A stretch of 64,000 bases of DNA, from contig NZ_LMGL01000001.1 of NCBI RefSeq assembly GCF_001427145.1, forward strand, positions 1,193,241 to 1,257,240, written 5' to 3'. Position 1 is the first letter of the stretch. Each line of letters opens with the position of its first letter. Made by a program: the position numbers and the translations under genes. Below, one piece after another: positions 60,821 to 64,000 of this stretch. Origin of the DNA: Microbacterium sp. Root166. Lineage in GTDB: Bacteria; Actinomycetota; Actinomycetes; Actinomycetales; Microbacteriaceae. Under the pieces are notes generated by a model that made no database searches, was not told the origin of the DNA, and worked only from the letters and a program-made list of their open reading frames with translations.

Positions 60821-62544
60821 CCGACTCGACCTCTTCGCCGGCCGCGCCGCCCCATGAGCTGGTGAAATCGCGCTTCAGCGACGGCGAATGGCACCGCCTG
60901 CACCCCCTCACGCCGCTGCTGCGCGGCGGGCTCGCGTTGCTGGTCGTCGTCGGCGTCATCATCGCCAATCTGCGCGACCGAGCCCTCCAGATCTTCCTGC
61001 CCTGGCTCGCGCCCGACTTCGAGGACGAGGTCGGGGAGTGGGACTCCGGCGGGGATCCGATCGACTTCGTCATCGCCAACAACCTCTACCTCGTCGCCGT
61101 TCTGGTCGTCCTCGGCGCGATCCTGCTGGTGATCGCCGGCTTCTACCTGTCGTGGCGGTTCCACACCCTGCGGATCACCGATGACGACGTCGAGGTGCGC
61201 AGCGGCATCCTCTTCCGCACGCAGCGCCGGGCGCCGCTCGACCGCGTGCAGGGCGTCAATCTGACCCGCCCGATGATCGCCCGGCTCCTGGGCATGGCCA
61301 AGCTCGAGGTGGTCGGCGCCGGGACCGACAGCAACGTCAAGCTGGAGTACCTCTCCACCTCCGACGCCGAGACGGTGCGCGCCGACATCCTCCGGCTGGC
61401 GTCCGGCCGCCGGCTCGCGGCGACCGCGGCCCCGGGCAGTCCTGCCCGGACGTCCGGTCGCGTCGCCGCGCTGAGCCAGACGGTGAGCCGTGAGCTCAGC
61501 GGCATGATCGAGGGACCCGAGGCGCCGGTCGCCGTGCCCGAGTCGGTCGTGAATATCCCGGTCGGCCGGCTGGTGGCATCCCACGTCGTCAGCATGTCGA
61601 CGATCGGCCTGCTCTTCGCGGCCGCGGCCATCGCGGTGGGCGTCTCGCAGGGGATCACCTGGCTGCTCTTCGGCTTCGTCCCGGCGATCATCGGTTTCGC
61701 CGCCTACTGGGTGCGATCGATCGTGCGGTCGCTGCGGTACTCGATCGCCCCGACGCCCGACGGCGTCCGCATCACCTTCGGCCTGCTCACCACCGTCACC
61801 GAGATCGTGCCGCCGGGGCGCGTGCATGCCATCGAGGTCTCGCAGCCGATCCTCTGGCGCCCGGCCGGCTGGTGGACGGTCCGGATCAATCGCCTGACGG
61901 GACGCAGCGCCACCGACAGCACGACGGATCAGTTCACGACCGTGCTGCCGGTGGGCACGGCATCCGATGTCGAACGCGTGCTGCGCCTGATGCAGCCGTC
62001 GGTGCCGGACGCCGAGTGGGCCCTGATCGCCCACGAGGGGATGCACGGAACCGGCGCCGCGGCCGACGACACCTTCACCAACTCGCCGCGACGCGCACGG
62101 TGGATCCGGCCGCTGTCGTATCGCCGCAACGGGTTCCGGCTCACCGGCGATCTGCTGCTGCTCCGGCGCGGCCTCATCTGGCGCCGTCTCGGCATCCTTC
62201 CGCTGGCCCGCCTGCAGAGCCTCGCGCTGCACCAGGGGCCGCTCGACCGCGCGACGCGGGTGGCGTCGCTGCGGGCGCACGTCGTCACCGGTCCGGTCTA
62301 CGCAGGTCTGGCGGCGATCGACCGCGATCACGCGCTGGGGCTGTTCCAGGATGCCGCGGCCGCGGCCGTGCGTGCGGCCACGGTGGACACCTCCCACCGC
62401 TGGGCGGACGACGGAGGCGCGGCCGAGCTGCCGCCGGCCGACGAGGTGCTCGCCCCGGAGGCGGCTGACCCGGTGGCGGCTGGTCCGGACGCGACCGCTC
62501 TGGAGCCCGCCGAGCCCGAGGCCGCCGTGGACGGGCGCGCATGA
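60817..62544 (+). CDS. Bacterial PH domain (YdbT-like) membrane protein, second of a pair
   Basis: A 575-residue protein with a repeated design: membrane helix pair then bPH_2 domain, at ~35-110 with APLDRVQGVNLTRPMIARL, ~245-290 with EIVPPGRVHAIEVSQPILWR, and a final PH-like domain with LGILPLARLQSLALHQGPLDR. The C-terminal ~60 residues are an acidic Ala/Pro-rich tail. It forms a two-gene unit with the preceding PH protein (ATGA overlap). Function probably in envelope stress; unproven here. Confidence 0.82.
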   Translation: MTDSTSSPAAPPHELVKSRFSDGEWHRLHPLTPLLRGGLALLVVVGVIIANLRDRALQIFLPWLAPDFEDEVGEWDSGGDPIDFVIANNLYLVAVLVVLGAILLVIAGFYLSWRFHTLRITDDDVEVRSGILFRTQRRAPLDRVQGVNLTRPMIARLLGMAKLEVVGAGTDSNVKLEYLSTSDAETVRADILRLASGRRLAATAAPGSPARTSGRVAALSQTVSRELSGMIEGPEAPVAVPESVVNIPVGRLVASHVVSMSTIGLLFAAAAIAVGVSQGITWLLFGFVPAIIGFAAYWVRSIVRSLRYSIAPTPDGVRITFGLLTTVTEIVPPGRVHAIEVSQPILWRPAGWWTVRINRLTGRSATDSTTDQFTTVLPVGTASDVERVLRLMQPSVPDAEWALIAHEGMHGTGAAADDTFTNSPRRARWIRPLSYRRNGFRLTGDLLLLRRGLIWRRLGILPLARLQSLALHQGPLDRATRVASLRAHVVTGPVYAGLAAIDRDHALGLFQDAAAAAVRAATVDTSHRWADDGGAAELPPADEVLAPEAADPVAAGPDATALEPAEPEAAVDGRA

Positions 62545-63254
62545 GACGCGACGGCAGGCTCGGCGTCGGCGTGATCGGCGCCGGACGCGTCGGCCCGGTG
62601 ATCGGTGCCGCTCTCGCCGGTGCAGGTCACGCGCTGGTCGGCATCACGGCCGGATCGGACCCGGACCGCGTCGAGGCCGTCCTTCCGGGCGTGCCCACGC
62701 TCGAGGCCGTCGAGGTGGTCCGTCGCAGCGAGCTGGTCATCGTGGCGGTGCCCCACGACCAGCTCGAGGGTCTGGTCGCCGGACTCGCCGCGATCGGCGC
62801 CTGGCAGCCGGGCCAGCTGGTGCTGCACACCGACCCTGCCTACGGAACCGCCGTCCTCGCGCCCGCGATGGCGCAGGGCGCGATCCCCCTGGCGGTGCAT
62901 CCCGCGATCGTGTTCACGGGCACGTCCATCGATCTCCGTCAGCTCGGCACGGCATACGCCGCGGTCACGGCACCCGGCCCGGTGCTGCCGATCGCGCAGG
63001 CGCTCGCCGTCGAGCTCGGGTGCGAGCCCGTCGTGGTCGCCGAAGATGCCCGGCCCGTCTACGCCGACGCCGTCAGCGCCGCCACGGAATTCTCCCGCTC
63101 GATCGTGCGCCAGTCGGCGGGGCTGCTGGCCGAGGCCGGCGTTCCCAGCCCGGGCGCGTACCTCTCGACCCTGCTGCACTCGACGATCGACCATGCACTC
63201 GCCGAGGCGGGGTCCGCGTCGCCGGACGGCCCCGCGGCTACGATCAACGGATGA
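62541..63254 (+). CDS. DUF2520 Rossmann-fold dehydrogenase-like protein
   Basis: A 237-residue protein with an NAD(P)-binding start VGVIGAGRVGPVIGAAL and a C-terminal helical DUF2520-like part (DAVSAATEFSRSIVRQSAGLL). The layout equals 6-phosphogluconate-type or ketopantoate-reductase-type enzymes, though it is shorter than the ~290-300 residues of most of these. Its stop overlaps the panC start, so a ketopantoate reductase-like role in pantothenate synthesis is attractive but only inferred. Confidence 0.82.
   Translation: MRRDGRLGVGVIGAGRVGPVIGAALAGAGHALVGITAGSDPDRVEAVLPGVPTLEAVEVVRRSELVIVAVPHDQLEGLVAGLAAIGAWQPGQLVLHTDPAYGTAVLAPAMAQGAIPLAVHPAIVFTGTSIDLRQLGTAYAAVTAPGPVLPIAQALAVELGCEPVVVAEDARPVYADAVSAATEFSRSIVRQSAGLLAEAGVPSPGAYLSTLLHSTIDHALAEAGSASPDGPAATING
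63239..63244 (+). promoter_or_regulatory. Candidate internal -10 box before panC
   Basis: TACGAT inside the end of the DUF2520 gene, 6 nt before the panC ATG at 63251. It could give a separate leaderless transcript besides the operon transcript. Confidence 0.4.
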
Positions 63255-64000
63255 TCAGCACCATCGACGGGCTCCGGTCCGCCCTGGCGGACGCCCGGGC
63301 CGCGAAGCCCGCCGGCGCTCGTGTCGCGCTCGTCTCGACGATCGGTGCCCTTCACGACGGCCACATCGATCTCATCCACCATGCGCGAGAGGCGGCCGAC
63401 ATCGTCGTCGTCTCGGTCTTCGTGAACCCGCTGCGGTTCGCCACTCCCGCGCAGTACGCCGACTATCCCCGCACTCCCGACGATGACGAGCGCCTGCTGG
63501 AGTCCCTCGGCGCCGATGTCGTGTTCGCTCCCACCGCAGACGAGATGCTGCCGGACGGCGCGGCCACCACGCGGATCAGCGCCGGTGACATGGGGCACCG
63601 CTACGAGGGCCGCGCCCGGCCGACCTACTTCGACGGCCTGCTGACGGTCGAGGCGAAGCTGTTCAACCTGGTCCGCCCGGACGTCGCGTTCTACGGCGAG
63701 CGCGATCCGCAGCGGATCTTCCTGGTGCGGCGGATGATCCGCGACCTCGCGTTCGACGTCGAGGTCGCGACCGTCGAGACCGTGCGCGGCGACGACGGCC
63801 TGCCTGTCTCCACCCGCGTCGGCATGCTCGAGCCGCGCGATCTGGCGGCGGCCGGACTGCTGCCGGCGGCGCTCGATGCCGCCGCCTCCAACGCCGATCG
63901 GGGCGTCGACTCGTGCATCGCCGCCGCGCAGTCGGCGCTGATGGGCGAGACCCGTATCCGCCTCGAGTACCTGAGCGTCGTCGACCCGCGCAGCTTCCTG
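63251..64000 (+). CDS. panC: Pantothenate synthetase homologue, divergent active site (partial)
   Basis: The first 250 residues of a gene cut by the right edge. The enzyme class couples pantoate and beta-alanine using ATP. Seen: STIGALHDGHIDLI with both His of the HIGH-type motif (His35, His38), VSVFVNPLRF, YPRTPDDDE, TVEAKLFNLVRPDVAFYGERD and VSTR. Several residues conserved in studied PanC enzymes differ: the Gln of NPxQF is Arg62, the His of RPxHF is Tyr126, the GEKD Lys is Arg151, the following QQ is Gln154-Arg155, and MSSRN is VSTRV (186-190). Either this is a divergent but active lineage or a paralogue. Start ATG overlaps the DUF2520 stop. Confidence 0.8.
   Translation, partial: MISTIDGLRSALADARAAKPAGARVALVSTIGALHDGHIDLIHHAREAADIVVVSVFVNPLRFATPAQYADYPRTPDDDERLLESLGADVVFAPTADEMLPDGAATTRISAGDMGHRYEGRARPTYFDGLLTVEAKLFNLVRPDVAFYGERDPQRIFLVRRMIRDLAFDVEVATVETVRGDDGLPVSTRVGMLEPRDLAAAGLLPAALDAAASNADRGVDSCIAAAQSALMGETRIRLEYLSVVDPRSFL

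Follow-up and report, generated by a model that had tools for sequence, protein, structure and literature searches.

PanC is pantothenate synthetase (pantoate--beta-alanine ligase), the enzyme of the final step of vitamin B5 synthesis, and panB is the source of its pantoate. The window, the whole stretch of 64,000 nucleotides of Microbacterium sp. Root166 DNA that was analysed, ends inside a panC homologue with several replaced active-site residues. The question raised by this locus is whether its product is still a pantothenate synthetase or has become another kind of ligase.

The window gene and its replaced acid-site residues

The ATG of the gene overlaps the TGA of an upstream DUF2520 gene (Table 1), and its stop codon lies 99 bases past the window end (G000:C1:1257339). 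The preliminary description had called the product a PanC homologue, and this was borne out: the protein is full length (282 residues) and scored 247.5 bits over its length against Pfam PF02569 (Pantoate_ligase; cut-off, 20.7) and 227.4 bits against the NCBIfam panC equivalog TIGR00018 (cut-off, 212.75), by which it is named PanC. TIGR00018 was run on the window protein alone; the PF02569 cut-off was passed by all 39 copies of this changed form found in the genus. The predicted fold (AlphaFold pLDDT 94.7, pTM 0.91) had Mycobacterium tuberculosis PanC as its best PDB matches (1N2H, 1N2J and 1MOP; TM 0.85-0.88 for the predicted model, approximately 40% identity).

Table 1. Positions in the window of the panC homologue, its upstream neighbour and the residues discussed in the text.
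Feature	Window positions	Strand	Basis
Upstream Rossmann-like/DUF2520 gene, 4-base overlap with the panC start	62541..63254	+	ORF, domain match
Changed panC homologue, codons 1-250 of 282	63251..64000	+	ORF; PF02569, TIGR00018
Ser29 and Ile31, positions of the pantoate contacts Pro38 and Met40; intervening Thr30 kept	63335..63343	+	Alignment and contact list
HDGH (residues 35-38), kept HxGH nucleotide-binding motif	63353..63364	+	Alignment
Arg62, position of pantoate-binding Gln72	63434..63436	+	Alignment and contact list
Tyr126, position of His135 (reported beta-alanine carboxylate contact)	63626..63628	+	Alignment and contact list
Glu134, pocket position Val143	63650..63652	+	Alignment and pocket list
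Tyr148 (Phe157) to Arg151 (Lys160)	63692..63703	+	Alignment and contact list
Arg155, position of pantoate-binding Gln164	63713..63715	+	Alignment and contact list
VSTRV (residues 186-190) replacing MSSRN; Ser187 and Arg189 kept	63806..63820	+	Alignment

The alignment comprised 43 distinct changed proteins, left from 45 loci after removal of two duplicates, and 55 ordinary PanC proteins, namely 21 of the 66 from the genus, 33 distinct proteins from the rest of the family (48 loci) and 1 from M. tuberculosis. Nine non-actinobacterial loci and a split gene (G244) were left out, and the protein of a 0.9 Mb genome was kept apart. Arg62, Tyr126, Arg151 and Arg155 of the window protein, which the preliminary description had listed as replacements, were all found at those positions relative to M. 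tuberculosis PanC. Each was present in 43/43 changed proteins, and the corresponding residues were Gln, His, Lys and Gln in 55/55 ordinary PanC. The reported retention of the His pair and the Asn (His35, His38 and Asn59) and the reading VSTRV for MSSRN were likewise correct. Four fixed changes were found in addition, P38S, V143E, F157Y and A194P (M. tuberculosis numbering, used from here on).

Compared with M. tuberculosis PanC, the changed form differs by P38S, M40I/L, Q72R, H135Y, V143E, F157Y, K160R, Q164R, A194P and N199V/I/A/L. Pro38, Met40, Gln72, Phe157 and Gln164 were kept in 0/43 changed proteins, compared to 52 to 55 of the 55 ordinary ones; the changes at 135, 143, 160 and 194 were present in 43/43. 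The MSSRN region was looser, with Val, Ile or Leu at 195, Thr (23 proteins) or Ser (20 proteins) at 197, and four residues in use at 199. Being fixed across 43 changed proteins, the pattern of replacement is, as judged from the alignment, in excess of chance.

Excerpts of a review describe pantoate as held by hydrogen bonds from Gln72 and Gln164 and by Pro38, Phe157 and Met40, and the beta-alanine carboxylate as meeting Gln72 (fixed by Asn69), Arg198 and His135 (PMC9780415). PMC7770189 likewise names a conserved pair of glutamines where pantoate binds, and PMC5772511 and PMC9780415 describe a salt bridge from Lys160 to the ATP phosphates. Ordinary PanC has 62 conserved columns; 10 of them were altered in every changed protein, and every one of the 4 pantoate contacts within this conserved set was among those 10 (Fisher p 0.0004). 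With the pocket taken as the CASTp list of PMC11317409, and with pocket tests chosen after the changes were known, no significant enrichment over the whole pocket was found among the columns conserved in ordinary PanC (7 of 33 compared to 3 of 29, p 0.31), and 9 of the 14 clade-invariant new columns fell in the pocket, a significant enrichment (p 0.0004 with all 264 columns as background, 0.004 with the other invariant columns).

His44, Asn69, Tyr82, Arg132, Asp161, Gln163, Ser196 and Arg198 were kept in 43/43 changed proteins and His47 in 42/43. The HxGH motif was intact in 41/43; it was broken by H47R in one genome (G222) and by G46A in another (G198), and the same G46A occurred in a protein outside the 43 (G492). 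Residue by residue, the changed proteins largely keep the ATP half of the site, and either K160R (43/43) or S197T (23 proteins) could weaken catalysis. By descent and predicted fold the changed protein is a member of the PanC family that, on the evidence of its residues, is without the features defining pantoate use.

In seven hand-picked close pairs of the changed panC, dN/dS was 0.06 to 0.15. Over all pairs the medians were 0.26 for the changed gene and 0.45 and 0.41 for ordinary panC, values from groups that are not comparable because divergence was unmatched. No internal stop was found in the 39/39 genus copies. The codon comparisons indicate that the changed panC is under purifying selection.

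A second panC, the slot and the distribution of the changed form

The window genome (3.46 Mb, 99.8% complete) was checked for a second panC, as the preliminary description had proposed. An ordinary copy was found 122 kb from the window gene in a DUF2520-panC-panB cluster (C1:1379022-1379846, 339 bits), and it falls within the 21-sequence group with standard residues. Profile matches gave two copies each of panB and panD: an additional panB adjoins a panD, and another panD lies elsewhere (G000:C1:596529-597736 and C1:398815-399141). Given the second, ordinary panC and these panB and panD copies, the window genome is expected to synthesize pantothenate even if the window gene does not contribute.

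The window gene had been described as sitting in the normal operon place, and comparison with relatives agrees: this is the ancestral panC slot, and it is the ordinary panC of the genus that stands elsewhere, beside panB. In other genera, a single ordinary panC is flanked by DUF2520 and lysS in 17 of 20 eleven-kb loci. In Microbacterium the same two genes flank 39/39 changed copies, with insertions of 3 to 5 kb before panC in two and extra DNA before lysS in some, and the ordinary copies of the genus that were read lie outside this slot. At the M. fluvii locus, no lysS was present within the 4 kb read.

Neighbouring genes gave no candidate partner. The DUF2520 gene was matched in 117/119 genus genomes whatever their panC state, the two misses being genomes 77% and 44% complete, and was rejected as a pathway partner. 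This Rossmann-like gene is also present in genomes without any panC or panB, so a role as a dedicated ketopantoate reductase is, by its distribution, unlikely. An MBL-fold hydrolase gene lies just past the window between the changed panC and lysS (L002:2364-3143), as in some relatives. It occurs in 8/39 changed-panC slots and also in 4/20 slots without a full panC (L129, L130, L132 and L136), and was likewise rejected as a partner. Among the other slot open reading frames listed, no pathway lead was found.

In the protein tree, a quick tree whose deep forks are weak, the changed copies formed one clade (SH-aLRT 100, stem 0.72). This clade grouped with the PanC of the family and apart from the ordinary genus copies (fork support 80), 21 of which formed a separate clade (support 98). 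In a lysS plus DUF2520 tree of 39 loci with the changed form and 18 without it (from the 80 genomes that lack it), its presence required 10 changes, at least 7 of them forced by supported forks, and one genome (G254) retains a 65-residue C-terminal panC remnant in the slot. From these locus-tree changes and this remnant, the history fits one origin followed by repeated loss; the changed form may also have moved by transfer between relatives. In the seven slot copies from other genera that lie nearest to the changed form, ten of eleven sites had the standard residue and residue 121 varied between Arg and Lys; no halfway form was found among the PanC copies compared.

Other irregular panC genes were observed. 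C-terminal PanC fragments of approximately 55-80 residues adjoin lysS, without a full panC, at four loci of two other genera (L158, L159, L163 and L164; g44 and g34), and may be remnants of loss or kept domains. The 0.9 Mb genome (G015) has as its sole panC match a strongly diverged gene (L088) with Phe at 135 and Ser at 158 that keeps Gln72, Lys160 and Gln164. In G244, an ordinary panC beside panD and panB is split by a frameshift (L087), which may reflect faulty sequencing or recent gene loss.

The PF02569 matches in 119 Microbacterium genomes fell into two groups, at 304 bits or above and at 232-261 bits, with G244 counted apart from both. The changed form was present in 39 genomes and the ordinary form in 66; 26 had both, 13 the changed form alone, 40 the ordinary form alone and 39 neither. 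Absence from 80/119 genomes indicates that the changed panC is not essential. Ordinary panC was accompanied by panB in 66/66 genomes, and so in the 26 that also have the changed form. Over the whole genus, panB was present in 26/39 genomes with the changed form compared to 42/80 without it (p 0.17). The 13 genomes with the changed form alone had no ordinary panC, no panB (0/13) and no panD (0/13). The preliminary description had named lineages that make pantothenate with the same substitutions and no other panC as evidence that would speak against an altered role; no such case was found in this genus, as none of the 13 genomes without another panC has panB. A heteromer with ordinary PanC was rejected as a general role, these 13 genomes having no ordinary PanC.

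Comparison with other Microbacteriaceae, also suggested there, gave Gln, His, Lys and Gln, not Arg, Tyr, Arg and Arg, in 33/33 family proteins. Among 150 family genomes, 118 had a PF02569 match, and two matches were found only in the window genome and in G113, where both copies score as ordinary. No copy of the changed form was encountered beyond the genus in the family, phylum and class genomes searched. In 398 family genomes, the top non-genus identity to the changed protein among the matches listed was 56%, and in 246 phylum genomes a clade profile gave 531 bits for the window gene and 306 bits for the next of the matches listed. A DNA pattern for FVNPxRF, which is not exhaustive and misses variants such as YVNPLRF (L037), had 7 matches in 394 class genomes: PanC in two genus members, and five unrelated. 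A profile scan of genome contigs returned 15 loci, of which six belong to Microbacterium and carry the changed form and nine come from proteobacterial MAGs or similar, and a plasmid search returned 375 records matching the protein, all below 60% identity (best, 43%).

What the changed protein may do

The second ordinary panC, the clade-wide fixation of the replacements and the 13 genomes without ordinary panC or panB make an altered substrate or reaction, as the preliminary description had suggested, the best reading that sequence offers. We consider it fairly probable that the ancestral-slot panC of the Microbacteriaceae became a different adenylate-forming ligase within Microbacterium, probably for a more anionic acid. 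The fuller statement, that a genus-restricted new ligase arose from PanC with a rebuilt acid pocket, uses a non-pantoate and probably anionic acid, and is kept without pantothenate synthesis, is one towards which we lean on balance. In such a history the second copy would have come first, and the slot copy would then have been freed, once the second panC served pantothenate synthesis or the pathway had been abandoned. The acid pocket, formerly hydrophobic with a pair of glutamines, would have acquired two arginines, one glutamate and two tyrosines. The nucleotide half would work as in PanC, the acid carboxylate attacking ATP to give an acyl-adenylate, and the acyl group would then be passed to an amine. 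The two arginines stand where the uncharged diol tail of the acid sat, and they point to an acid bearing an additional negative group, for which another carboxylate or a phosphate would be a good match.

The same residues bear on whether the protein is an enzyme at all. A pseudoenzyme that kept the fold, and perhaps ATP binding, could act by binding alone, for instance in sensing or by pairing with ordinary PanC. The replacement of both Lys160 and His135 in 43/43 proteins and the HxGH motif broken in 2/43 and in G492 would agree with this. However, the motif is intact in the other 41, Asp161, Ser196 and Arg198 are invariant, the acid pocket is fixed to new residues and is not drifting, and the 13 genomes described above have no ordinary PanC to be partnered; we regard a pseudoenzyme as unlikely. 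Continued action as a pantothenate synthetase whose site tolerates the changes, in parallel to the second copy or on outside pantoate, would accord with its passing the PanC equivalog cut-off, its location in the panC slot and its retained His pair and Asn. Against this stand the replacement of all five pantoate contacts in 43/43 proteins and the occurrence of the gene in 13 genomes that have neither panB nor panD. Moreover, Microbacterium Leaf203, cited here for its panB-less state only, needs pantothenate in growth assays according to an excerpt of PMC13392072, although a panB-less strain would need it whatever its PanC does, unless pantoate were supplied. Continued pantothenate synthesis by the changed protein appears quite unlikely.

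Patchy presence and repeated loss could also suggest a relic, a panC that has been eroding, with selection relaxed, since the second copy arrived. This is very improbable in view of the low dN/dS of the close pairs, the lack of internal stops, the 101 invariant columns among the 43 proteins, and the identical new residues at nine sites in 43/43. A different adenylate-forming ligase is the reading carried forward here.

Relation to known PanC and significance

The closest known thing to the changed form is PanC itself. It shares HxGH, Asn69, Tyr82, Arg132, Asp161, Ser196 and Arg198 with the M. tuberculosis enzyme and differs from it at the ten sites given above. The ordinary PanC of the genus, encoded in the DUF2520-panC-panB cluster, is of the same family and overall length; in contrast, it forms a separate clade and has the standard residues at all ten sites in the 21/21 proteins compared, of 66 known. 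The PanC of other Microbacteriaceae lies in the same fol-DUF3180-PH-PH-DUF2520-panC-lysS slot, which makes it the orthologue by position, and it is the nearest by sequence outside the genus among the matches listed. It is standard at the changed sites in 33/33 proteins, apart from Ala at 38 in one and Leu at 40 in three, and has Asn199 in 33/33. In the titles and abstract openings searched, with subscription papers mostly outside their scope, there was no report of a changed Microbacterium PanC clade, nor of any PanC using a different substrate.

The presence of PanC is often taken to indicate vitamin B5 synthesis, and in the changed clade the reported pantoate-binding residues are all replaced. 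The NCBIfam PanC label on the changed form can mislead predictions of pantothenate synthesis, and 13/119 Microbacterium genomes could be credited with the pantothenate step from it. If the changed form does carry out another reaction, Microbacterium would offer a well-defined example of functional innovation in a vitamin enzyme, in which the ancestral form, the copy that replaced it and a scar of loss are all available for comparison.
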